Shown here: positions 1,305 through 11,804 of the stretch, in pieces
How positions within the stretch are numbered: position 1 is the first letter of the stretch
Layout of the letters: every line of letters begins with the position of its first letter
Origin: Thermococcaceae archaeon
GTDB taxonomy: Archaea; Methanobacteriota_B; Thermococci; Thermococcales; Thermococcaceae
Direction of reading: 5' to 3'
DNA: 14,043 bases
Assembly (NCBI GenBank): GCA_027064745.1
Contig: JAMOPD010000089.1
Span: 1 to 14,043, forward strand
The notes under the pieces: generated by a model
Told to the model about the DNA's origin: nothing
Databases searched by the model: none
What the model saw: the letters and a program-made list of their open reading frames with translations, nothing else
Position numbers and translations under genes: made by a program

Positions 1305-1350
1305 ACTTGAGGTTATGAACGCCAGCCTTATCAATTTGCAAGCTAAATCT

Positions 1351-1388
1351 CCCTTTTCAAACTTTTTTCGATCAAAGGGGCCTTTTTA
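1351..1388 (+). terminator. Oligo-T transcription terminator region
   Basis: Three T-rich runs (TTTT, TTTTTT, TTTTT) lie 47-83 bp after the antiporter stop codon. Archaeal RNA polymerase terminates at such U-tracts without needing a hairpin. No gene follows on this strand for over 2 kb, which fits the end of the operon. Confidence 0.45.
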
Positions 1389-1587
1389 GTAGAGTAGGCG
1401 TCATCGGTTAAAGGACCCTGTCATTCCTCTTTCAAAAATGCATGAGGAATGGGCTAATAAAACTTTCTCACAATGATTCAAACAGGACTTCACTTAATAT
1501 GGGTTATTAAATTGAATTTTTAAGGGGAATGCACAAACTTACATAATGGGGGACTACTATGAGAAAATTTACTCATAGTGATTATTA

Positions 1588-1818
1588 TGAGGGCTGCTCT
1601 ATTTTAGAAAGGTATCATTTGATTATCCCGCCAAAATATTTATATTCAATTTTTTAAAATCGTTAGCTATTTTGTTGCATTTTGGATATTCTCCTCTATG
1701 GCCATTATCCTGCTTGAACGTGAAAATAATTTGAATGCTTTGTATGTGAGTGCTGTGGGCACTACTCAATTAGCGCCTGTTTATGTTGGATTAATTGCAG
1801 CGTTGATACTTTCAGGAT
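1588..1818 (+). pseudogene. Remnant of a membrane protein, possibly an ABC-2 type permease
   Basis: The frame from 1623 to the TAG at 1816 is open for 64 codons and strongly hydrophobic (YFVAFWIFSSMAIILL). It is followed by LERENNLNALYVSAVGTTQ, which resembles the E-R-E-x-x-L-x-A-L-x-V-S segment of ABC-2 permeases. Just upstream, another frame continues a similar pattern (LYFRKVSFDYPAKIF from about 1597), suggesting a frameshift, and a short in-phase MRAALF start is cut by a TAG near 1605. The frame ends inside a short inverted-repeat element (1807-1873), whose TTTCAGGATAG supplies the last codons and the stop. I infer a permease gene killed by frameshifts and by insertion or deletion at the element. 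The family call rests on eye-matching of one motif. Confidence 0.38.
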
Positions 1819-1873
1819 AGGCCAGACTGCCCTATACCGGATTTATCATCAGGCGCTCTCACAGCTGACAGTA
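1807..1873 (-). repeat. MITE-like element, copy 4 (inverted orientation)
   Basis: Reading plus, the copy starts TACTTTCAGGATAG and ends CTGACAGTA, so its ends are inverted repeats with one mismatch and a short deletion at the right end. The internal core ATACCGGATTTATCATCAG (1834-1852) is the reverse complement of the core in copies 1 and 2, with one base change. Flanking bases give GATAC on the left and GTATC on the right. It terminates the permease-like remnant. Confidence 0.75.
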
Positions 1874-2338
1874 TCGCACCATTTGTCGAAATTTTAAAAA
1901 TCATAGTTGGCCAGATATTTGAGATTAAATCCGCGTTTCACCCCCTCAATTAATGGTGCTCTTGTTCTGCTTACTTCTTAATGAGATAGTTGCAAATCCC
2001 AAAACACATGAACCTAAAGATAAATCTATCTCTATGTGATAATGTTGGAGATTGTGATGTAATGGATAATGTAATTTCTTGTGTTGTCAAATCATTTCTA
2101 GGAACTGGAAATAATGTGAATATTGTGTATTATCGACTGTTGAATACAACAATCCTATTTGTCATTGGACATAGATTGCATAAAAGTGATGCAAGCATAA
2201 GGTATATCACAGAGAAGGATGTGTTTTTCAGCATATTTTAATCGGCTTTCACTATCAATAAGGTTTGTCTACTATGTTACCATTATTAAATGTGGAAATT
2301 TAGCTCTTATGACTCCAATATGCCCATGTTACGTTGTT

Positions 2339-2801
2339 TTAATTCTCTTTAAGATCCTCCTCTAATACTGGCTTAACATTATCTACTATTATGCTGACTA
2401 TTTAGTATCCCTAGCAATATTAAGCTTCTAAAAGACTTTAAACTGGATGCCTTCTTAGTATTCCTCTGGCAATATCTTCCATGATAGAAATAAGGTTACT
2501 CTATAACATGTAATGGAGTTGTATCAATGAGAAAAGAGACTGAATCAGGTATCCATCTTGGGTAGACACTGTAGGAATCTAGATGACTATCAAGTTTTAG
2601 TTTTAGATGATCAAGTATATTTTACTTAGGCTTATCAACATTAAAATATCCTAGATCAGTTACATAATTATAAAGAGAGTTGTCATCTATATCCACAACA
2701 GTTAAATTAAATGCAGATTTCCCAAATTTAAGAATCTGCTCGTGAATGATGTTATCTCTTTTTAAGTCTTTTTTAGGATCTGTCAAATTACCTCCAGTTC
2801 A
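2339..2801 (-). pseudogene. Decayed coding region, unrecognised protein
   Basis: On the minus strand one frame stays protein-like for over 400 bases but is broken by TGA at 2799-2801, TAA at 2622-2624 and TAA at 2496-2498. Segments include DLKRDNIIHEQILKFGKSAF, VVDIDDNSLYNYVTDLGYFN and SVSFLIDTTPLHVIE. Near 2390 the coding pattern jumps frame to SIIVDNVKPVLEEDLKEN, ending at the TAA at 2339-2341. The same frame also continues upstream of 2801 to 3008, but that part is hydrophobic and may be chance. The FLIDTTP segment could be read as the first catalytic Asp of a DDE transposase, but that is speculation. I do not recognise the family. Confidence 0.4.
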
Positions 2802-3033
2802 TAACTGTGTCTGGGAGATACGTGAAAGACAATGAGTACAGGGAGATTTTAAAGAAACAATTAAAAATAAAACGAAGTCTTTCACAGTAACAGTTGTTAG
2901 GTTATAGATGTGTGAAAAATATCTCAAAACCATGAGCGCTAATTTATATATTGCAAATGCGTAGATAACCGTGAAAATGTAGAAATGAGCACTGTAAGAA
3001 TATACCACGGATTCATTTCACCTAACCAAAGAT

Positions 3034-3258
3034 TTACATATCACGAATACATAAATAACAGTGAAATTTTTGTACAATCGAAGGTTTTACGCATGGTTTT
3101 GGCATAAATATTTGTGAAGTTCCAACTCTAATCTTTCCATGCCATCTTGAAACAGCAATCACAAAATAATGTCAAATCCTAAAGTTCGCATACATAGCTT
3201 CGTTCCATAATTCCCGTGTATTCTTACATCGCTGGATCTCCTTTATTTCATTAGACAT
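3034..3258 (-). pseudogene. Possible decayed small coding region, unrecognised
   Basis: From ATG at 3258-3256 the frame encodes MSNEIKEIQRCKNTRELWNE and continues to a TGA at 3174-3172. After that single stop it stays open for another 45 codons, including SRWHGKIRVGTSQIFMPKP, up to TAA at 3036-3034. The composition is more protein-like than its surroundings. No family match is apparent, and part of the frame runs through copies of the 40-bp repeat. This may be chance. Confidence 0.2.
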
Positions 3259-3299
3259 TATGTTTTTGTAATTACATACCTCTCAATAATCCTCAAGAG

Positions 3300-3322
3300 T
3301 TAGCGTGAAAAATTCACGCTAA
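3300..3322. other. Perfect 10-bp hairpin
   Basis: The arms TTAGCGTGAA and TTCACGCTAA are perfectly complementary around an AAA loop, followed by a short T-rich tract (TGTTTTA). No gene ends nearby on either strand. It could be an end hairpin of a lost IS200/IS605-like element, a terminator remnant, or a protein binding site. Confidence 0.55.
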
Positions 3323-3529
3323 ATGTTTTAGACTTACCAGTTGTGATTAATTGTTGTTGCAATTGCATTTCCACTCATGCAAGAACCTCTCATAAATGTA
3401 AAGATTTACCTATAGTTTTAACACAAATAATAATGAAACAAATTGTCGTTTGGTACTTCATTGCAACCTTTGCTTTTCTCTTTGCGTATTCCAGCCACTA
3501 ACTTGAAAAGATCACTGCATAAAGGATCA

Positions 3530-3612
3530 TACTGTCAGGGTAACCTGTGAGAGCTCCTGATAATAAATCCGGTATAACTATTAAATGCGCTGTCTAACTT
3601 ATCCTGACAGTA
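3530..3612 (+). repeat. MITE-like element, copy 1 (most complete)
   Basis: This 83-bp copy begins TACTGTCAGGGTAA and ends TTATCCTGACAGTA, a 14-bp terminal inverted repeat with one mismatch, and both ends carry TA. The core CTGATAATAAATCCGGTAT is at 3557-3575. Inside, GAGAGC and GCTGTC can form a second, imperfect stem around the core. It ends 47 bp before the start codon of the YgjP gene, and its TATAACTATTAAATG stretch (from 3572) could act as a TATA region for that gene. Confidence 0.8.
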
Positions 3613-3659
3613 AAGGGTTATGGGAAAATTTTTCTACTCTTTCTTCCAGAAAGAATTCA

Positions 3660-4325
3660 ATGAGGAGCATAAATCTGAATGGCAGGGAAGTCAGGTATGA
3701 GGTGATTAAACGGCCTGTTAGATATCTACGGATTTATGTTATGCCAGAGGGATATCTTAAAGTTGTTTCACCAACTGAGGACGTGGAAGAATTCATCAGA
3801 AGGAAAAAGAGCTGGATTCTGGAAAAACTCGCACTTTTCGAGGAGATTCCATCGGAGGCCTTTGAGAGATTCCCTTTATTTGGAAGTTTTTATGAGATTG
3901 AAACGGGCGATAAAACCGGAATATACAAAAACAGGATTTACTATCGTGATTTGCCCCAGCTTGAGCGGTTTCTCAGAACTATCTTGAAAGAGAATCTTCT
4001 GAAACTTGTTAGCATGTATTCACCTTTAATCGGCCAATCCCCCAACAGAATTTTCATAAGAAAAAACAGGAGCAGATGGGGCAGCTGCTCTTCCAGAGGC
4101 AACCTAAGCTTCAATCTGATGGTTGTTTCACTGCCAGCTGAACTTATCGATTACCTTGTTGTCCATGAACTTGCCCATTTGATCGAGCTGAACCACAGCA
4201 GGAAGTTCTGGGACATCGTGAGCCGATTCCATCCAGATTACAAACAGAAAAGGGAGGAGCTCAGAAGGTGGTGGCTTATAGTGAGGAACAACCCCTACTG
4301 GAAGCTCATCATGAGATGCTGTTAG
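3660..4325 (+). CDS. YgjP/M48-type zinc metallopeptidase (DUF45 family)
   Basis: The protein (221 aa) belongs to the YgjP-like gluzincin family, SprT-like putative zinc proteases found in bacteria and archaea; the substrate is not known. The zinc site is visible as HELAH at residues 169-173, with the third ligand His in LNHSRKFW near 179. Just before it comes the family signature RWGSCSSRGNLSFN (139-152). The N-terminal half is a beta-rich domain ending in the charged EEFIRRKKSW helix. I chose ATG at 3660 because residues before it (from 3585) are translated repeat element. The ribosome binding site is weak (AGAAAG). The UPF0282 gene follows 99 bp downstream on the same strand but has its own TATA-like stretch. 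Confidence 0.85.
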   Translation: MRSINLNGREVRYEVIKRPVRYLRIYVMPEGYLKVVSPTEDVEEFIRRKKSWILEKLALFEEIPSEAFERFPLFGSFYEIETGDKTGIYKNRIYYRDLPQLERFLRTILKENLLKLVSMYSPLIGQSPNRIFIRKNRSRWGSCSSRGNLSFNLMVVSLPAELIDYLVVHELAHLIELNHSRKFWDIVSRFHPDYKQKREELRRWWLIVRNNPYWKLIMRCC

Positions 4326-4390
4326 GAGCCAACGCCTGACGATTATAAAGCCTGTGCATTACAAGCCCTCACAGCGTGCATCATGAAGGG

Positions 4391-4403
4391 CTAAAATTTT
4401 AAG
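4391..4403 (+). promoter_or_regulatory. Putative TATA box of the UPF0282 gene
   Basis: The AT-rich CTAAAATTTTAAG stretch is centred roughly 28 bp before the ATG at 4425. This would start the transcript at or just before the start codon, in keeping with the lack of a strong ribosome binding site. Confidence 0.4.
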
Positions 4404-4424
4404 GTTAGGCTCGTATTGAAAACC

Positions 4425-5336
4425 ATGAGGATAGTTCCCATAGCATCTGAAAGCCTCGGCGTTAGAAGTCTGGCGATTTTCGTGCAAATGGGAAAGCGAG
4501 GAATTTTGATCGATCCTGGCGCGGCTCTCGGGCCCAAGCGTTACGGCCTCCCGCCTGCTAAAGCGGAACTTGAGGCGCTGAATGAGGCAAGGCAGAAGAT
4601 TCAGGCCTATGCCAGAAAGGCAGATATAATAACAATCTCCCATTACCATTACGATCACCACACACCTTTCTTTGAGGGTATTTATGAGAGTTCATCCCCT
4701 GAAAGGGCAAGGGAGATCTATGAGGGTAAAATCCTCCTGATAAAGCATCCAAAGGATAATATAAACTTCAGCCAGAAAAAGCGCTCGTGGGTCTTTCTCA
4801 AAAGTGCCCAGCCAATAGCAGGAAAGATTGAATATGCCGATGGCAGATTCTTTGACTTCGGTGATTTCATCATGGAATTCTCCCCAGCGGTTCCCCATGG
4901 AAGTGAAGGTACAAAGCTCGGCTTCGTGATTATGGTGATGATCGACGACGGCACCAGAAGGATAATACACGCGAGCGATACCCAGTTCCTGAACCGAGTC
5001 TCTGCTGAATGGATAATCAAGCAGATGCCTGACTTGATAATAGGTGATGGCCCACCCACATATCTTGAAGGCTATCGGGTGAAAAATGCCTGGAAAACCG
5101 GCCTGGATAATCTCAATCTGATCATCAGGGAGACGAATGCTGAGCTGATCCTTGATCATCACCTAATAAGGGATAAGAGGTATCCCCGATTTTTTGAGGA
5201 GCTTGAAAAGCCTCCTAAGACCTTTGCAGGCTTCATGAAGGTTGAGGATAGACCTCTCGAAGCTTACAGAAAGGAGCTTCACAAAATAGAGAGGGGAGAA
5301 AAGGTGGAGCTACCCTTTCCTTACAGGATTAGTTAA
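4425..5336 (+). CDS. UPF0282 family metallo-beta-lactamase-fold hydrolase
   Basis: The 303-aa protein is an MBL-fold hydrolase of the archaeal UPF0282 family, widespread in Thermococcales and without an established substrate. The metal-binding motif is HYHYDHH at residues 73-79 (H-x-H-x-D-H). Further likely ligands are His158 in VPHGSEG, Asp185 in IHASD and His245/246 in LDHHLIRD. The conserved start IASESLGVRSLA and the IDPGAALGPKRYGLPP segment are typical of the family. Length is normal and the frame is intact. An upstream TTG (4416) is in frame, but family N-termini begin at the ATG. Its 3' end overlaps by 27 bp the dead minus-strand fragment at 5310-5490. Confidence 0.88.
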   Translation: MRIVPIASESLGVRSLAIFVQMGKRGILIDPGAALGPKRYGLPPAKAELEALNEARQKIQAYARKADIITISHYHYDHHTPFFEGIYESSSPERAREIYEGKILLIKHPKDNINFSQKKRSWVFLKSAQPIAGKIEYADGRFFDFGDFIMEFSPAVPHGSEGTKLGFVIMVMIDDGTRRIIHASDTQFLNRVSAEWIIKQMPDLIIGDGPPTYLEGYRVKNAWKTGLDNLNLIIRETNAELILDHHLIRDKRYPRFFEELEKPPKTFAGFMKVEDRPLEAYRKELHKIERGEKVELPFPYRIS

Positions 5337-5490
5337 TTCTCTCAGCGGGTATTCTTCTCTGAAACATTCCCTGGGTGAACTCTTTAGAAGTATCGTGTTC
5401 TCTATTAGCTCGTTTTCTTTAATAATGCCCTCAGTCAATATAACATAGCCGCTCACTCTGACTATCCATTCTTTAGGTATGATATTTCGA
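5310..5490 (-). pseudogene. C-terminal gene fragment, unrecognised, cut at a MITE-like element
   Basis: The minus strand is open for about 58 codons with convincing protein character: IPKEWIVRVSGYVILTEG, then IIKENELIENTILLKSSPRE, ending in ELTNPVRKG at TAG 5312-5310. It has no start codon of its own and begins exactly at the end of the repeat element at 5491. It could be the C-terminus of the SDR gene on the other side of the element or the end of a different gene joined by deletion. I do not recognise it as an SDR C-terminus. Confidence 0.45.
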
Positions 5491-5541
5491 TACTGTCAGG
5501 ATAACAGCCCGCATACCGGATTTATTATCAGGCGCTTTCAC
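5491..5541 (-). repeat. MITE-like element, copy 3 (one end lost)
   Basis: The copy starts with a perfect TACTGTCAGGATAA end at 5491 and carries the core ATACCGGATTTATTATCAG at 5513-5531, reading opposite to copies 1 and 2. After GGCGCTTTCAC the match stops and SDR-like sequence begins, so its far inverted repeat has been deleted. It sits between the two parts of dead minus-strand coding sequence. Confidence 0.75.
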
Positions 5542-5835
5542 TCTCATCAACCTCTGTGAAGTCCTTGAACCAGTATACGGTGTTGTTCATAATGATATCC
5601 GGCTCCCTGCTCTTCAAGGCCTCTCAAAGGGCATCTATTTCGACTTTCCGCGAGAGATTAACGCGATAGATATTCACATCACTTCCATCAGTTTCTTCAT
5701 ATCTCTCAGTCCAAACTCGTCTATATCCACAAGCTCCAGGTTTGTCCTCTCAAAGCAGTTACACGACCTATTCCCGAAGCAGCGCCGGTTATCAGGGCCC
5801 CTCAGGGAGATAAGCCTACCAATGGAGATATTCAT
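5542..5835 (-). pseudogene. Short-chain dehydrogenase/reductase (SDR), decayed N-terminal half
   Basis: On the minus strand the nucleotide-binding motif ALITGAASGIGR (TGxxxGIG) is encoded at 5799-5764. Other frames continue with ERTNLELVDIDEFGLRDMKK, the usual second strand with its acidic LVDID end, then SDVNIYRVNLSRKVEIDA and PDIIMNNTVYWFKDFTEVDE, where the NNAG motif has become NNTV. At least two frameshifts and an in-frame TGA (5626-5624) separate these pieces. An ATG at 5835-5833 follows a good GGTGA ribosome binding site, 46 bp after the TetR gene. The catalytic Ser-Tyr-Lys half is missing, and the coding sequence runs into the repeat element at 5541. I infer an operon partner of the TetR gene that was lost. 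Confidence 0.75.
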
Positions 5836-5881
5836 ACAATCACCGATTTATCTCTACGCTTTCCGGCAATAAATAGGTTTC

Positions 5882-6445
5882 TCACGACCGTTTTGAGCAG
5901 GTAAAGATTCGAAACGCCTCTTTTTTGGCCTCTTTAACCGATACCTCGTCCCGAAATACCATGTAGTCTAGGGCAAATCCATCCACCAGAGCCCCAAGGA
6001 GAAACGCCCTCGCCCGGGGATTTTCGGCTCCAATCTCTCTGAAAATATCCTCCAAAATCCGAAAGTACTGACTTCTGAAGGCTTTCCACACGTCTAGACC
6101 ATTCTTTTGCCTTAAGCTTTCCTCATAAACCTCAAGAAAGAAGTGTGAGAACTTAAGGCTCTGTATGACAAAGTCAAAGGATGCATCTATTATCGCCCAG
6201 AGCTTTTCCTCCGTGGATTCCAGCGGCTGAATCCTGGAAATAACCTCCCGTCCCCATATTTCAAGACCATAGAGGAGGGCTTCTTTTGCAAGCTCGTACT
6301 TGCTCGGAAAGTGGTGAAAAAGGCCACCTTTTGAGATACCTGCGTTTCTAGCTATCTCTTCCATTGAAACTTTGTGATATGACCTCTCGCTGAACAGCTT
6401 AAACGCAGCTTTTATTATTCGCCTCTTAGTTTCCTCGCCCTTCAT
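5882..6445 (-). CDS. TetR/AcrR family transcriptional regulator
   Basis: This is a 187-aa TetR-type repressor: an N-terminal helix-turn-helix DNA-binding domain (residues about 5-50) followed by an all-helical ligand and dimerisation domain. The DNA-binding part is textbook: RRIIKAAFKLFSERSYHKVS, then MEEIARNAGISKGGLFHHFP and SKYELA. The C-terminal domain has no recognisable ligand signature. I chose the ATG at 6445 because AGGTGG lies five bases ahead; a GTG nine bases further upstream is less likely. It starts 48 bp after the 88-aa gene and 46 bp before the dead SDR, all co-directional. The likely operator is the palindrome at 7216-7229 at the head of the operon, implying autorepression. 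Confidence 0.9.
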   Translation of the reverse strand: MKGEETKRRIIKAAFKLFSERSYHKVSMEEIARNAGISKGGLFHHFPSKYELAKEALLYGLEIWGREVISRIQPLESTEEKLWAIIDASFDFVIQSLKFSHFFLEVYEESLRQKNGLDVWKAFRSQYFRILEDIFREIGAENPRARAFLLGALVDGFALDYMVFRDEVSVKEAKKEAFRIFTCSKRS

Positions 6446-6493
6446 GATATCCACCTATCCCTACTCCTCCATAATCTAACAACCTCTTGAGTT

Positions 6494-6760
6494 CTATCCC
6501 TCAAATACTTTTCTTGGAGTTCGTGTGAACCGTTGGAAATCCAAAAAGAATTCGGCCGTCTTTGAGAAGTACTCCAGGATCAGGGCATCCTCACCCCACA
6601 GTATTATGATGACCGGTTCAACGTTTCCAAAATCGTGCAGCCCGGCTTCCGGGTAGCTGGGAAACACGGCGTTCAGACTGGTCTCCTCCTTGAGCTGCGA
6701 CGCAGAAGCCATAAAAAGGAGCGTCAGCTTCTCCACGACAGATTTGGTAATTGCCCTCAA
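6494..6760 (-). CDS. Hypothetical 88-aa protein, translationally coupled to flavodoxin
   Basis: I do not recognise this family. The start is a TTG at 6760-6758, five bases after a perfect GGAGGTGA that sits on the last codons of the flavodoxin gene; the flavodoxin TGA ends one base before the TTG. The frame stays open further upstream inside flavodoxin but without a start of this quality. The protein begins RAITKSVVEKLTLLFMASAS and contains FPSYPEAGLHDFGNVEPVII and ILEYFSKTAEFFLDFQRFTR. It looks soluble, alpha/beta, with no metal motif. Coupling to the flavodoxin suggests a shared function or complex. Confidence 0.65.
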   Translation of the reverse strand: MRAITKSVVEKLTLLFMASASQLKEETSLNAVFPSYPEAGLHDFGNVEPVIIILWGEDALILEYFSKTAEFFLDFQRFTRTPRKVFEG

Positions 6761-6761
6761 C

Positions 6762-7208
6762 TCATTCACCTCCCCCCACCACCTCCACCGCCCAGGACCG
6801 GGCCTCGGCGATTGTGGCCTCATTTTCCCTGAAGACCCAGCCATCGAAGACCTTGGCAGCAATTATCCTGCCCTTAATGGGTTCCATCATCAGGCGCAGG
6901 TATCTCTTCTTGGTGTATTCCTTTCCAAGCTTTCCAAATTTCTGCGCCATGGCGAGGATAAAGACGACAACTCTCTTTCCAGCCAGTCCCTTCTTTTCTT
7001 TGATGAACCTCAGCACCTCGGAAAGCGGTCTCTCGTAGTAAATCGGCGCCCCCATCATTATGAGGTCGCAACCATCAAGGTTCGGGTTCTGCTCCACGTT
7101 CCATGTGTGGGTCTCAAAGCCTCTCTCCCTAAGGGCGTTTTCAATCGCCCTTGCCACCCTTTCGGTCGAACCTCTCTTGGACCCATACACGATGCAGACT
7201 TTCATCAT
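6762..7208 (-). CDS. Flavodoxin-family (HemG-like) FMN protein
   Basis: The protein (148 aa) is a short-chain flavodoxin domain, expected to bind FMN and carry electrons in the cytoplasm. Strand 1 and the phosphate loop read VCIVYGSKRGSTERVARAI, a variant of the T/S-x-T-G-x-T loop. The IMMGAPIYYERPL segment is where flavodoxins contact the flavin ring, and KRVVVFILAM is the central strand. The look is closer to HemG-like flavodoxins than to classical electron-transfer flavodoxins. Either of two adjacent ATGs (7208 or 7205) could start it. It is the first gene of the flavodoxin, 88-aa protein, TetR, SDR operon, directly behind the TetR-type operator, so it is probably induced by whatever ligand releases the repressor. 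Confidence 0.85.
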   Translation of the reverse strand: MMKVCIVYGSKRGSTERVARAIENALRERGFETHTWNVEQNPNLDGCDLIMMGAPIYYERPLSEVLRFIKEKKGLAGKRVVVFILAMAQKFGKLGKEYTKKRYLRLMMEPIKGRIIAAKVFDGWVFRENEATIAEARSWAVEVVGGGE

Positions 7209-7215
7209 TTCACTT

Positions 7216-7229
7216 ACCGACCGGTCGGT
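7216..7229. promoter_or_regulatory. Perfect 14-bp palindrome, probable TetR operator
   Basis: ACCGACCGGTCGGT is its own reverse complement. Closely similar ACCGACC-GGTCGGT palindromes are known targets of several bacterial TetR-family repressors. It lies between the TATA box and the flavodoxin ATG (7208), covering the expected transcription start, the right place to block initiation. A TetR gene is third in the same operon. I saw no second copy in the window. The pairing of this site with this regulator is inferred. Confidence 0.75.
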
Positions 7230-7236
7230 TGGTATG

Positions 7237-7250
7237 ATATTTATACTTTT
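7237..7250 (-). promoter_or_regulatory. BRE/TATA promoter of the flavodoxin-TetR operon
   Basis: On the minus strand AAAAGTATAAATAT gives a strong archaeal TATA box with an upstream A-rich BRE. A start about 25 bp downstream would fall near 7217, inside the palindrome and about 9 bases before the first ATG. Confidence 0.7.
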
Positions 7251-7300
7251 CTATGATTTTGTAACTGGGCAGTTTTGTCCTTTGGGACATTATCAGATGA

Positions 7301-7314
7301 GGAAAGTCTTAAAT
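7301..7314 (+). promoter_or_regulatory. Putative promoter of pncB
   Basis: GGAAAG (BRE-like) followed by TCTTAAAT, about 36-40 bp before the ATG, would give a short leader containing the AGGTGG ribosome binding site. An inverted repeat, TGTCC-TTTG-GGACA, lies just upstream at 7276-7289 and could be an operator. Confidence 0.4.
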
Positions 7315-7347
7315 CACCAGGGAACAAAATCATTACAGGTGGTAGCG

Positions 7348-8520
7348 ATGAAAGATTTCTATATAGCCCATGAAGATGAAATAAAGAGTGGAAAAACAAC
7401 CGATGTATATTTCATTAGAACAAAAAAAATTTTAGAAACAAAGGGTATTCATAAAAAAGTTTTTGCTGATGTTAGTACGACCAGCCTTCCAAAAGGCTGG
7501 AAATGGGGAGTTCTGGCGGGAATCGAGGAAGTCGCGAAGCTCCTTGAAGGTTTACCAGTGAACGTCTACGCGATGAGGGAAGGCACGATATTCCACCCCT
7601 ACGAGCCCGTCCTTCAGATAGAAGGTTACTACAAGGAGTTCGGAATCTACGAAACCGCTTTGCTGGGAATGCTCAGTCAGGCGAGTGGGATAGCCACGGC
7701 CGCTTTAAGAATCAAGATTGCCGCGAACTTCAAACCGGTCTACTCCTTCGGCATAAGGCACATGCACCCCGCGATAGCGCCGATGATTGATAGAGCGGCC
7801 TTCATAGGCGGCTGCGACGGCGTGAGCGGTGTTCTTGGGGCGGAGATGATAGGGGAAAAGCCCGTTGGAACGATGCCACACGCACTCATTCTAACAATCG
7901 GCGACCAGGTTAAGGCCTGGAAGTACTTCGATGAAGTTGTCGAGCCAGAAGTTCCGAGAACCGCTTTGGTTGACACCCTCTGCGACGAGAAGTTCGAGGC
8001 GCTGATGGCGGCCGAGGCCTTGGGCAAAAGGCTGAACGCGGTTCGCTTGGACACCCCGAGCTCCAGGAGGGGGGACTTCAGGAAGATAATCGAGGAGGTC
8101 CGCTGGGAGCTCAACCTGAGGGGCTACGACTGGGTGAAAATCTTCGTCAGCGGTGGCCTCGACGAGGAGAGCATAGAGGAGATAGTTGATTTGGTCGATG
8201 CCTTCGGCGTTGGAGGCTCGATAGCATCGGCAAAACCCGTTGACTTCTCGCTCGACATAGTGGAGATCGAAGGGAAGCCGATAACGAAAAGGGGCAAGCT
8301 CAGCGGAAGGAAGCAGATTTACCGCTGTGAGAACGGTCATTATCACCGCGTTCCTGCCGAGAAGAAGCTCGAGCGCTGTCCCCTCTGCGGGGCGAAGGTC
8401 GAGCCGCTCCTCCAGCCGCTCATCGAGAACGGCGAGATAGTGGCAGAGCTGCCAAAAGCGAGGGAGATAAGAGAGTACGTGCTTAAGCAGGCTGAGAAGT
8501 TTAATTTGGATATTGAGTAG
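7348..8520 (+). CDS. pncB: Nicotinate phosphoribosyltransferase
   Basis: The enzyme makes nicotinate mononucleotide from nicotinate and PRPP, with ATP, in NAD salvage (EC 6.3.4.21). The 390-aa product matches the archaeal family over its whole length: start MKDFYIAHEDEIKSGKTTDV, the phosphoribosyl-site segments YSFGIRHMHPAIAPMIDRAA and GVSGVLGAEMIGEKPVGTMP, then RLDTPSSRRGDF and FVSGGLDEESI. The C-terminus carries a zinc-ribbon-like C-x4-H...C-P-L-C segment (YRCENGHYHR and ERCPLCGAK). ATG 7348 follows AGGTGG with five bases between. The first ~120 bp of the gene are very AT-rich (about 26% G+C by my count at 7351-7470) whereas the rest is near 55%, a mosaic pattern. It is divergent from the flavodoxin operon and convergent with ferredoxin 1. 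Confidence 0.95.
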   Translation: MKDFYIAHEDEIKSGKTTDVYFIRTKKILETKGIHKKVFADVSTTSLPKGWKWGVLAGIEEVAKLLEGLPVNVYAMREGTIFHPYEPVLQIEGYYKEFGIYETALLGMLSQASGIATAALRIKIAANFKPVYSFGIRHMHPAIAPMIDRAAFIGGCDGVSGVLGAEMIGEKPVGTMPHALILTIGDQVKAWKYFDEVVEPEVPRTALVDTLCDEKFEALMAAEALGKRLNAVRLDTPSSRRGDFRKIIEEVRWELNLRGYDWVKIFVSGGLDEESIEEIVDLVDAFGVGGSIASAKPVDFSLDIVEIEGKPITKRGKLSGRKQIYRCENGHYHRVPAEKKLERCPLCGAKVEPLLQPLIENGEIVAELPKAREIREYVLKQAEKFNLDIE

Positions 8521-8529
8521 TCGAGGGAA

Positions 8530-8546
8530 TAGAAAAGAAAAAAGAG
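8530..8546 (-). terminator. Oligo-T terminator after ferredoxin 1
   Basis: On the minus strand, directly after the ferredoxin stop, the sequence reads CTCTTTTTTCTTTTCTATT, two T-runs in the short convergent gap with pncB. Confidence 0.5.
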
Positions 8547-8549
8547 ATT

Positions 8550-8759
<210 letters not shown>

Positions 8760-8784
8760 TCACCAAGAATAGTTGAAACGGGAG

Positions 8785-8799
8785 TAATATAAATCTTTC
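8785..8799 (-). promoter_or_regulatory. BRE/TATA promoter of ferredoxin 1
   Basis: Minus strand GAAAGATTTATATTA is a strong BRE plus TATA element about 40 bp ahead of the ATG. The spacing allows a short leader carrying GGTGAT. Confidence 0.7.
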
Positions 8800-8901
8800 G
8801 TTGGAGTTAGGTATGGAGAGCTGTTAAAACAAAGAGACAAGAGACGTTAATGAACATTTTACTACAAAGTTATCTACAAATGGCCAAATCATGAATTAAT
8901 G

Positions 8902-8916
8902 GAAAAACAGAAAAAA
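8902..8916 (-). terminator. Oligo-T terminator after ferredoxin 2
   Basis: Minus strand TTTTTTCTGTTTTTC follows immediately on the stop codon of ferredoxin 2, separating it from ferredoxin 1, which has its own promoter. Confidence 0.55.
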
Positions 8917-9167
<251 letters not shown>

Positions 9168-9243
9168 CGTTAAACCCTTGTCAAAAATAAAGTTAAAACA
9201 GAGATAAGATAAGTGTAGTAGCTTGGCTTCATGTTCATGTTAA

Positions 9244-9771
9244 TCAATAAAGTCCGAGTTTCTTCTTGTACTCTGGACTTATTCTATCGGGCGTCCAAGG
9301 CGGGTCGAAGGTGAGCTCAATCTCAGCATCTTTGACACCTGGGATCTCAAGAATTTTATCCTCAACAGCTCTGAGAATCCACATGGTAAGCGGACAGCCT
9401 GGTGTTGTCATCGTCATCTCAACATACACAGTTTTATCCGGTCTAACCTTTACCTTGTATATGAGGCCAAGGTTAACGACATCAATACCAATTTCAGGGT
9501 CTATAACCTCCTTGAGCTTCTCAAGCACTGTCTTCTCATCCAGCTTGACATTTTCGGAGACTTCCTTTTCTGATCTCGGAAGTTTTATCTCAATGTTCCT
9601 AATTCCACTAATCTTTCCAAGTTCCTGATGGAGCTTTATCAGAGTAACATCGTCTATCTCTTTCTCAAGCTCAACAAATAGAGTGCCGTCATCTTTAACT
9701 TCAACTTCCTTAACGAGATCATCATCAAGAATCTCACTGAGCTTTGCCAATACTTCCACTTCTTTCACCAT
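9244..9771 (-). CDS. DUF59/MIP18 (SufT/PaaD-like) iron-sulfur assembly protein with an extra N-terminal domain
   Basis: The C-terminal ~95 residues are a DUF59 (MIP18) domain, a family used in iron-sulfur cluster maturation. Evidence is LKEVIDPEIGIDVVNLGLIY (86-105), EMTMTTPGCPLTMW (118-131, with the conserved Cys126) and the tail LTFDPPWTPDRISPEYKKKL. The first ~70 residues are extra relative to single-domain members and look like a worn copy of the same fold: VLAKLSEILDD, DDGTLFVELEKE and GIRNIEIKL parallel VLEKLKEVIDP, DKTVYVEMTM and GVKDAEIEL. The Cys loop is absent from that half. ATG 9771 follows AGGTGA by six bases. It lies 49 bp after the PP-loop gene, with TATA boxes between, next to two ferredoxins. 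Confidence 0.88.
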   Translation of the reverse strand: MVKEVEVLAKLSEILDDDLVKEVEVKDDGTLFVELEKEIDDVTLIKLHQELGKISGIRNIEIKLPRSEKEVSENVKLDEKTVLEKLKEVIDPEIGIDVVNLGLIYKVKVRPDKTVYVEMTMTTPGCPLTMWILRAVEDKILEIPGVKDAEIELTFDPPWTPDRISPEYKKKLGLY

Positions 9772-9802
9772 ATCATTTCACCTAAACCCAATTTAAAGCA
9801 CC

Positions 9803-9818
9803 ACATTTAAACCTTTTG
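9803..9818 (-). promoter_or_regulatory. Putative promoter of the DUF59 gene
   Basis: Minus strand CCAAAAGGTTTAAATG is a BRE/TATA-like stretch about 40 bp before the ATG. A second GCTTTAAATT lies closer, near 9790-9799. Confidence 0.5.
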
Positions 9819-9820
9819 GG

Positions 9821-10552
9821 TCATTTTTGTAGAATATCATAAATCAGAGTCAGTGCAATTTCCTCATCAATAACCCTCGCACGAAGTTCCCTCAAAACTC
9901 TCTGAATGGCAAAACGCTTAAGCACAGGAACATTCTTGGCCGCAGTCTTCCATAAGGGACATCCAAAGCTTAGTGTATATTTGCCCCCAATAACCCCGAT
10001 AACTTCCCTCTTATCCATGGCAAGAAAAGCAGGAAGGTTCAGGGTTGTGATGTCACCCTTCTGGTATATAGATACCAGTCCAGAGCTCAGAAGATCACCG
10101 GAGGCCACAATTTTTACTTTATTCTCACGGGCATATTTCTCAACGGCCTCCATTATCATTGAGTGGCATACTCCACAGATAGGGGCTTTCTTCCTTATTC
10201 TCTCGTTCATTACCTCCATGTATCCGGGGATTTCCACAAAAACCACATCGTAGTTAAGGGCATGCATCTTTATCTGAGGAAGCTTCACCATTACAGGGAC
10301 AACATTAAAACCAGCCCACCTTAGAATCTTCAGCGAAGCCGTGCTGTCACTTCCCATAGAGAAAGCTAAAACTATCTTCTCATCAAGTGGACTCCTATCA
10401 AACTCCTTTCCATAAAGTCTGTACTCAAGGAGTGATCTCAGTCGTTCATAAATTCTTTCTCCAATCTCATTCTTGACTCTCTCCAAAGCTTCGAAGCTCT
10501 CACGAATTCTATAGATTTTTACGAAGTCATCTTCTATTCTCCCTATCATCAT
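9821..10552 (-). CDS. PP-loop superfamily ATP pyrophosphatase with CxxC and a third Cys (thiolation-enzyme-like)
   Basis: PP-loop enzymes adenylate a substrate, often a tRNA base, to prepare sulfur or nitrogen transfer. The loop is AFSMGSDSTASLKIL (about residues 63-77 from the start chosen here), a SxGxDST variant. Downstream come ICGVC (Cys126 and Cys129) and SFGCPLWK (Cys198), the C-x2-C plus C arrangement that holds a [4Fe-4S] cluster in TtcA/TtuA-type tRNA thiolases. The zinc fingers of TtuA are missing, so the substrate is open. Two starts are possible. ATG 10552 has GGGAG nine bases ahead and an AATTTAATAAAG box about 24 bp upstream. The longer ATG at 10609 is formed at the very end of the repeat element and has no ribosome binding site. 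Neighbours suggest an iron-sulfur role. Confidence 0.78.
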   Translation of the reverse strand: MMIGRIEDDFVKIYRIRESFEALERVKNEIGERIYERLRSLLEYRLYGKEFDRSPLDEKIVLAFSMGSDSTASLKILRWAGFNVVPVMVKLPQIKMHALNYDVVFVEIPGYMEVMNERIRKKAPICGVCHSMIMEAVEKYARENKVKIVASGDLLSSGLVSIYQKGDITTLNLPAFLAMDKREVIGVIGGKYTLSFGCPLWKTAAKNVPVLKRFAIQRVLRELRARVIDEEIALTLIYDILQK

Positions 10553-10608
10553 GTTCCCAAACTCCCGGAGCTTTATTAAATTTCTCCTTGAAAAAGTCTG
10601 AAGGCTCA

Positions 10609-10674
10609 TACTGTCAGGATAACCTGTGGAGGGCCTGATAATAAATCCGGTATAAGCCCTCTGACTTATCCTGA
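10609..10674 (+). repeat. MITE-like element, copy 2 (right end eroded)
   Basis: Starts with a perfect TACTGTCAGGATAA at 10609, has the core CTGATAATAAATCCGGTAT at 10635-10653 and ends CTTATCCTGA before diverging, so the last bases of the right inverted repeat are lost. GAGGGC and GCCCTC flank the core as a perfect inner 6-bp stem inside the AGGATAA/TTATCCT outer stem. It fills the divergent gap between the PP-loop gene and bpsA and touches the alternative ATG of the former. Confidence 0.8.
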
Positions 10675-10681
10675 AGGCTTA

Positions 10682-10696
10682 GGAAATCTTTAAAAA
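10682..10696 (+). promoter_or_regulatory. BRE/TATA promoter of bpsA
   Basis: GGAAATCTTTAAAAA lies about 53-67 bp ahead of the bpsA ATG, just outside the repeat element. The expected start near 10717 gives a ~30-base leader containing GGAGGTGAT. Confidence 0.6.
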
Positions 10697-10748
10697 TGCC
10701 CCTAGCTAACCTCCTTTTACTGATGAATTCCTTCTGGAGGTGATTGAA

Positions 10749-11804
10749 ATGAGGGAAATTATTGAAAAGGTTAGAAAGAAGACTAGCATCCCCGTTTACG
10801 AGAGAACCGTTGAGAACGTTCTTTCGGCGATTCAGGCGAGTGGAGACGTGTGGCGCATAGTAGACCTCAGCGAGGAGCCGCTTCCCCTCGTGGTGGCTGT
10901 CATTACGGCGCTCCACGAGCTTGGTTACCTAACCTTCGACGGCCTGAGCATCGTCCTCACTCAGAGCGGCAGGAAGCTGGTGGAGAAGTACGGAATAGGC
11001 GCCAGGAGGGACTACACCTGCTCCCACTGCGAGGGCAAGACCGTTGAGCTTTCAGCCTTCAGCGACCTGCTTGAGGAGTTCAAGGAGATAGTCAAAGACC
11101 GCCCACAGCCCAAGCACGACTTCGACCAGGCCTACGTCACGCCAGAAACAACAGTGGCGAGGATAGCCCTCATGCACACTAGGGGTGACCTTGAGAACAA
11201 AGAAGTTTTTGTCCTCGGCGACGACGATCTGACCAGCATAGCCCTCATGCTCAGCGGCCTTCCGAAGAAAATTGCCGTCCTCGACATAGACGAGAGGCTG
11301 ATAAAGTTCATCGAGAAGACCGCAGACGAGCTCGGCTACGAGAGCATCGAGATATTCACCTTCGACCTCAGGAAGCCCCTACCAGACTACGCGCTCCACA
11401 AGTTCGACACCTTCATCACCGACCCGCCCGAGACCGTCGATGCTATAAGGGCGTTCGTCGGCAGGGGAATAGCTACGCTTAAGGGTCCGGGATGTGCCGG
11501 CTACTTCGGCATAACTAGGAGAGAGAGCTCACTCGACAAGTGGAGGGAAATTCAGAGGTTGCTCCTCAACGAGTTCGGGGTTGTCATCACCGACATAATC
11601 AGGAACTTCAACGAGTACGTCAACTGGGGCTACGAGGAAGAGACCCGCGCCTGGAAGCTCCTCCCGGTCAAGGTCAAGCCGTCCTACAACTGGTACAAGA
11701 GCTACATGTTCAGGATTCAGACCCTTGAGGGCTCGAAGGGCTTCGAGGAAAAAATAGAGATCGGCGACGAGCTCTACAACGACGAAGAGGCTTCAACAAC
11801 ATGA
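10749..11804 (+). CDS. bpsA: N4-bis(aminopropyl)spermidine synthase (branched-chain polyamine synthase)
   Basis: BpsA adds aminopropyl groups from decarboxylated S-adenosylmethionine to spermidine, giving the branched polyamine N4-bis(aminopropyl)spermidine that supports growth at very high temperature in Thermococcales. The 351-aa product is near-identical in layout to the T. kodakarensis enzyme: an N-terminal winged-helix part (SIPVYERTVENVLSAIQASG to about residue 85), a short CSHC element (91-94), and a Rossmann catalytic part with FVLGDDDLTS (GDDD at 157-160, the known catalytic Asp being in this motif), VLDIDERL, and ITDPPETV. It closes with NWYKSYMFRIQTLEGSKGFE. ATG 10749 follows GGAGGTGAT with ideal spacing; a GTG at 10740 overlaps that site and is unlikely. 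The gene is GC-rich and intact. Confidence 0.96.
   Translation: MREIIEKVRKKTSIPVYERTVENVLSAIQASGDVWRIVDLSEEPLPLVVAVITALHELGYLTFDGLSIVLTQSGRKLVEKYGIGARRDYTCSHCEGKTVELSAFSDLLEEFKEIVKDRPQPKHDFDQAYVTPETTVARIALMHTRGDLENKEVFVLGDDDLTSIALMLSGLPKKIAVLDIDERLIKFIEKTADELGYESIEIFTFDLRKPLPDYALHKFDTFITDPPETVDAIRAFVGRGIATLKGPGCAGYFGITRRESSLDKWREIQRLLLNEFGVVITDIIRNFNEYVNWGYEEETRAWKLLPVKVKPSYNWYKSYMFRIQTLEGSKGFEEKIEIGDELYNDEEASTT

Follow-up and report, generated by a model that had tools for sequence, protein, structure and literature searches.

Short IS6-type miniature elements in a Thermococcaceae genome and their probable insertion at a set spacing from promoters

The window considered here is a whole 14,043-nucleotide contig (JAMOPD010000089.1) from the genome assembly of a Thermococcaceae archaeon (GCA_027064745.1), and it carries four short repeats, designated E1 to E4. 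We believe it is likely that these repeats are gene-free miniature inverted-repeat transposable elements (MITEs) belonging to the ISPfu type of the IS6 family, and that they are moved by an ISPfu-type transposase with a strong preference for inserting at a set spacing from promoters; this level of confidence applies to the explanation as a whole. A sequence-only reading of the window had already described the repeats as MITE-like, and this description is borne out by their short, gene-free structure, inverted ends, high copy number, flanking duplications and, for the one copy tested (E4), an empty site in relatives. The repeats themselves are real, because their shared core CTGATAATAAATCCGGTAT occurs four times in the window whereas shuffling yields a mean of 0.01 matches (200 shuffles). 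As originally observed, three cores are identical, at 3557-3575 (+), 5513-5531 (-) and 10635-10653 (+), the fourth at 1834-1852 (-) has one mismatch, and two elements lie in each orientation.

The source assembly comprises 424 contigs, of which the window is one; it totals 2.38 Mb and is 85% complete. Genome-wide, the core has 63 matches with up to three mismatches, and the end TACTGTCAGGATAA has at least 170 matches with up to one mismatch, with no match for the reversed-pattern control in either case. A family model that uses sequence only was built from 52 copies, and the best 150 of 1161 candidates were scored, giving at least 135 matches. One of these is the reverse reading of another, which leaves at least 134 distinct places. 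Counting and aligning the copies, as had been proposed, revealed a large family. Sequence was obtained for 133 of the places, among which both ends could be recognized in 100 copies (up to three edits) or 116 copies (up to four edits). The 116 two-ended copies are 48-86 bp long and contain no transposase gene. Flanks long enough for profiles were available on 115 right and 115 left sides (230 in all), with both flanks usable for 114 copies, and no two flanks are alike in their first 40 bases.

The mode of insertion can be read from these flanks. In the set of 100 copies, the flanks on the two sides tend to carry the same base at eight paired positions located one base outside ATACTG...CAGTAT, with 55-70% agreement at each. 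Other pairings agree at 5-41%, with the exception of the two terminal bases (54%), because C is preferred at both. An 8-bp duplication matches at all eight positions in 39 of 116 copies and at six or more in 57 of 116, whereas randomly paired flanks reach six or more in only 0.65% of cases.

The ends, in turn, connect the family to IS6. Ends of the MITE type (up to one mismatch) are present in at least 37 of 94 Thermococcales genomes, compared with three for the reversed control, among the matches listed, and PF13610 (the IS6-type DDE domain) is found in 12 of the 94. The sequence-only reading had recommended looking for a full-length insertion sequence with the same ends, and such elements do exist in related genomes, where PF13610-type transposases lie between paired ends about 780 bp apart. 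Pieces of these partner transposases match the IS6 models NF033587 and PF13610, although the NF033587 match is below the full-length cut-off. We collected 37 full-length elements from eight genomes by hand-picking end pairs approximately 745-780 bp apart among the matches listed. Duplications match at all eight positions in 22 of the 37 when an 8-bp frame is used, and six more appear by eye to be 9 bp. These copies fit the published sizes and duplications of ISPfu1, ISPfu2 and ISPfu5, which in the available part of the source are 781, 782 and 779 bp long, have ends that start with GA, and produce duplications of 8, 8 and 9 bp (PMC6807381). The genome G076 has 33 PF13610 matches, and 33 IS6 copies are given for P. 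furiosus COM1 in the accessible text of another report (PMC6640164), which makes it probable that G076 is P. furiosus.

The source genome itself reveals only relics of this partner. PF13610 has no match in the 85%-complete assembly, and the absence of a transposase from the window, as noted before, holds as far as the list of open reading frames (ORFs) was read. A decayed and shortened IS6 element with MITE-type ends is located on contig C33 at 975-1335 (376-736 of locus L097; best transposase match 8.8e-8) and is the sole transposase relic found by search. A 3' fragment of an IS6 element is present on contig C376, where a coreless MITE is situated directly beside it by eye (905-1061 of locus L109).

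A second regularity emerges further out in the flanks. We used the BRE/TATA-like motif AAANNTTTAWA (BRE denoting the transcription factor B recognition element), oriented so that it points away from the element, and counted distances into the flank, beginning at the first duplicated base. Motifs starting at 13-15 with at least seven of nine matches are found in 84 of the 230 flanks, compared with a mean of 8.2 and a maximum of 18 for 3-bp control windows from distance 25 on. The corresponding counts are 52 (control mean 2.0, maximum 5) at eight of nine and 17 (mean 0.4, maximum 2) at nine of nine. Without the 15 flanks that extend into a further copy, the counts remain at 84, 52 and 17 of 215. 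Scored per copy, with starts at 12-16 on at least one side, the motif accompanies 82 of 114 copies at seven of nine, where control windows average 11.6 and never exceed 18. At eight of nine it accompanies 52 of 114, where the controls average 3.0 and reach at most 7. It is faced by the left end in 41 copies, by the right end in 34 and by both in seven, and the elements therefore insert freely in either orientation. Among copies whose duplication matches at six or more positions, 46 of 56 carry the motif, compared with 36 of 58 for the others.

The precision of this placement is evident from a relocation test with joined flanks. At eight of nine matches, the true site scores 53 of 116, sites 5-10 bp off score 3-5, and sites 11-120 bp off score a mean of 2.5 (maximum 7; 44 positions tried). 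Overall, shifts of 5 bp or more lower the count to 0-7. Furthermore, a start codon followed by at least 50 open codons is present in 63 of 91 flanks with the motif versus 53 of 135 others (p = 1.2e-5). In T. kodakarensis, the BRE has a median distance of 33 bp from the start site according to the accessible part of PMC4247193, and we therefore estimate that the duplicated 8 bp are at roughly -38 to -46 relative to the start site. Copies that neighbour each other on one contig offer another view of this preference. Among 44 such pairs, the shortest gaps are 10, 10, 10, 11, 11 and 11 bp, the next is 277 bp, and no gap falls between 12 and 276 bp. The six tandem pairs, on contigs C9, C63, C68, C79, C287 and C373, are separated by one duplication plus terminal bases, as expected for a promoter-adjacent spot that has been hit twice.

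The same motif was applied to the 37 full-length elements with a window of 9-18 and four control windows. The motif is present on at least one side of 25 of 37 elements at seven of nine matches (controls 6, 8, 5 and 5) and of 19 of 37 at eight of nine (controls 0, 2, 0 and 1), and one G076 element has the same tandem arrangement as the MITE pairs. Given that the full-length IS6 elements exhibit the same peak, the preference for promoter position is a property of the IS6 transposition system and not of the MITE core.

Several observations weigh against this interpretation. The motif was picked after inspection of the source-genome flanks. It is missing at 12-16 from 32 of 114 MITE copies at seven of nine matches and from 62 of 114 at eight of nine, and no motif accompanies 12 of the 37 full-length elements. 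A single genome, G076, contributes 27 of these 37 elements, and the motif accompanies 20 of the 27 there and five of 10 elsewhere. The motif in the opposite direction also has a smaller local peak, the largest window of which holds 35, 6 and 2 of 230 flanks at seven, eight and nine of nine matches, probably because a TATA-like sequence is partly palindromic. No intact IS6-type transposase was found in the source genome, which is 85% complete. Lastly, the promoter assignment is drawn from DNA sequence, and the peak was measured in the IS6 system only.

A mechanism compatible with these data would begin with an ISPfu-type IS6 transposase that recognizes (C/G)ATACTGTCAGGATAA ends, makes an 8-bp staggered cut and mobilizes the MITEs. 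Given the relics in the source genome, it would presumably act in trans. Insertion is strongly favoured where the BRE/TATA-like motif starts about 5-7 bp past the duplicated bases, and either end can face the promoter. The position might be set by promoter-bound TBP and TFB, or by DNA that these factors have bent, and a cut just outside their footprint would keep the promoter usable. By analogy with the guidance of the retrotransposon Ty3 by TFIIIB, we judge the chances to be evenly balanced that archaeal IS6 transposases are guided to promoters by bound TBP/TFB and leave the promoter intact. Since a small number of proteins suffices to reconstitute archaeal transcription, such tethering is directly testable.

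The main rival to guidance by TBP/TFB is that the transposase itself senses A/T-rich or bendable BRE/TATA-like DNA a set distance away, with no transcription factor involved, a proposal that we take seriously but hold at less than even probability. The signal, after all, lies in a DNA motif at a constant spacing, weak base preferences exist near the duplication (for example, A at position 9 in 48% of the 230 flanks), and 28 of the 91 flanks with the motif lack a 50-codon open frame in the sequence examined. A symmetric reader might favour motifs on both sides, yet the motif is one-sided in 75 of the 82 positive copies, although this point is not decisive.

It is very unlikely that insertion is random and that only harmless copies upstream of promoters survive. 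Compact genomes do offer little harmless space, and our gene-by-gene check covers few copies. However, selection of this kind should tolerate any upstream distance, whereas the observed peak spans about 3 bp and disappears after a 5-bp shift. The tandem copies, exactly one duplication apart, also speak against it.

An equally improbable alternative is that the core is a functional site carried by the family, such as a recognition sequence or a structured RNA or DNA. The sequence-only reading had favoured a special role because the core seemed better conserved than the arms. Across 53 copies selected for their ends and a length of 70-95 nt, identity to the majority base averages 88.6% in the core, compared with 83.2% and 81.3% in the inner arms, so the claim is correct for the inner arms. 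The terminal ends, however, are better conserved still (92.7% and 92.9%). Among the 116 two-ended copies, the core is retained within three substitutions in 53 and within six edits in 36, and it is absent from 27. Duplications matching at six or more positions flank 14 of the 27 coreless copies and 27 of the 53 with a core. Coreless copies therefore keep duplications as often as core copies do, and mobility does not depend on the core. A long hairpin is predicted from the consensus (z = -7.7), but the inverted ends alone would largely give one.

Finally, the suggestion that these are MITEs of the Tc1/mariner/IS630 type with a TA target, which was based on ends that start with (A)TA, has essentially no probability left given the 8-bp duplications outside ends that match IS6-family elements.

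Several known transposable elements resemble parts of this system; the comparisons with published systems below draw on the accessible portions of the cited papers. ISPfu1, ISPfu2 and ISPfu5, which belong to an archaeal IS6 clade, share with the MITE its end sequence and its position relative to promoters, but they carry a transposase gene, and their interiors have no clear likeness to the MITE beyond the ends by eye. An IS6 review mentions two IS6-family MITEs of 227 and 336 bp and names neither a host nor a target preference for them in the text consulted (PMC7986276). Those elements are likewise non-autonomous with IS6 ends, whereas the present family is much shorter at 48-86 bp and numbers more than 100 copies. 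Within the same archaeal order, T. kodakarensis has a MITE linked to ISTko3 that is 274 bp long, with five copies, 14-bp ends, no duplication and no assigned IS family (PMC3852290). The same source attributes a count of 26 archaeal MITE families to a 2007 archaeal IS review.

Fixed distances upstream of promoters are known from bacteria, where TnGBS, ISLre2 and part of the ISKra4 group insert 15-17 bp from the -35 box (PMC3942029). These elements use a Mutator-like transposase, target sigma-A promoters of bacteria and as a rule insert in one fixed orientation, in contrast with the IS6 transposase matches, archaeal BRE/TATA motifs and use of both ends seen here. For archaeal ISH6, that source offers only the suggestion that an A/T-rich target might favour promoters. 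Yeast Ty3 likewise inserts harmlessly within a narrow interval upstream of a TBP-dependent promoter, and its intasome contacts TBP (PMC8632968). Ty3 differs in that its integrase is that of a retrotransposon and its targets are RNA polymerase III genes, and contact with TBP was demonstrated for Ty3 whereas for IS6 it is what we would predict. Our searches of the open-access literature found no report of promoter-positioned archaeal IS6 insertion or of this MITE family, although an earlier description is possible.

A fixed BRE/TATA spacing in an IS6 system would be a further independent case of promoter-positioned insertion, in a domain whose promoter machinery is a simple relative of the eukaryotic one. 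Such spacing would explain how a small genome can carry more than 100 insertions, and insertions of the ISPfu type would become markers of promoters used in the past. If guidance by TBP/TFB is true, then the MITE burst has put more than 100 near-identical inverted repeats beside promoters, with a potential role as boundary or regulatory sequences.

The wider distribution of the family is sparse. None of the 60 other genomes of the genus contains the core (up to two mismatches), and a model scan of the 94 Thermococcales genomes, with stricter filters and 51 candidates scored per genome such that copy numbers are lower bounds, gave matches in the source genome, in G063 (one strong, 2.7e-20) and in G057 (one weak, 2.1e-4). 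G063 belongs to another genus of the same family, and its copy, identical in sequence to one in a contig of Thermococci archaeon isolate B89_G9, has an 8/8 duplication, GGCGTTAA, with a BRE/TATA-like motif starting at 14 by eye. Given at least 134 places here and one strong copy in G063, the family represents a burst within a single lineage, and Thermococcaceae include at least one further host. The earlier statement that no described family has this core stands for the searches made, with the qualification that a copy exists in another genus.

Some candidate extensions of the family were rejected. Seventeen viral contigs match a degenerate core, but none has ends on both sides, and two have a weak end-like match (four edits) on one side, which gives no case for viral spread. 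Exact core matches in Ignavibacteriales and Bacteroidales contigs have no ends nearby, and an apparent full-length element between two ends on contig C303 proved to be two separate MITEs.

Other observations concern related elements. Substitutions among the MITE copies comprise 361 transitions versus 144 transversions, and internal deletions of a similar kind are seen at different loci, suggesting amplified subfamilies. G063 also holds a 106-bp element with the same ends and another interior (C84; 151-256 of locus L306), an 8/8 duplication, GAGGGCTC, and a motif start at 13 by eye, which is apparently a deleted IS6 copy. The G057 element (C1:34365-34451; 151-237 of locus L305) is 87 bp long, with IS6 ends, an interior like the IS6 left end and a weak model match. 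The approximately 780-bp IS6 copies of G061 and G004 (loci L128 and L136) have transposase frames that are broken at different points. In the source genome, C129:4816-5046 (locus L138) encodes a PF01609 transposase fragment with an 88-amino-acid open frame and an internal stop.

Within the window, the sequence-only reading had placed the four loci correctly, and only small shifts in their boundaries were necessary. E1 (1806-1874, -) keeps both ends and is flanked, by eye, by duplications GCAGCGTT at 1797-1804 and GCACCATT at 1876-1883, which match at six of eight positions. A BRE/TATA-like motif at 1889-1899 (+) starts 13 bp from the duplication start by eye, and the window ORF list contains no convincing gene downstream of it. 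E2 (3529-3613, +) is near full length with its right end altered to CAGTAA, and has the best model score (4.1e-21). E3 (5490-5541, -) has lost its left end.

E4 (10608-10671, +) is located in the spacer 5' of a gene at 10740-11804. Its right end is cut at TTATCC with the final bases lost, and the end previously assigned at 10674 runs into the target duplication. The two copies of this duplication, TGAAGGCT, at 10599-10606 and 10672-10679, are identical at all eight positions by eye, and the motif AAATCTTTAAA at 10684-10694 (+) starts 12 bp from the duplication start. The comparison of occupied and empty sites that had been proposed was informative for this copy. The joined E4 flanks match in 57 of 61 genomes of the genus, the source included, and ten relatives were chosen for detailed alignment from both-flank matches with locus sequence. 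E4 is absent from all ten; four align unbroken through the site, and in the other six the distance between the flanks is 15-21 bp shorter than in the joined query. Each of the ten relatives retains GGGAAAACCTTAAAA, the counterpart of AAATCTTTAAA, just downstream of the site.

Two features of the surrounding sequence are also worth recording. E1 resides inside a long A/T-rich segment (1305-3528) in which the sole wholly contained ORF of at least 80 amino acids is 1990-2241, with a TTG start. At 10607-10609, the end of E4 supplies an ATG that lengthens a minus-strand ORF (9821-10609), the true start of which is probably further inside.

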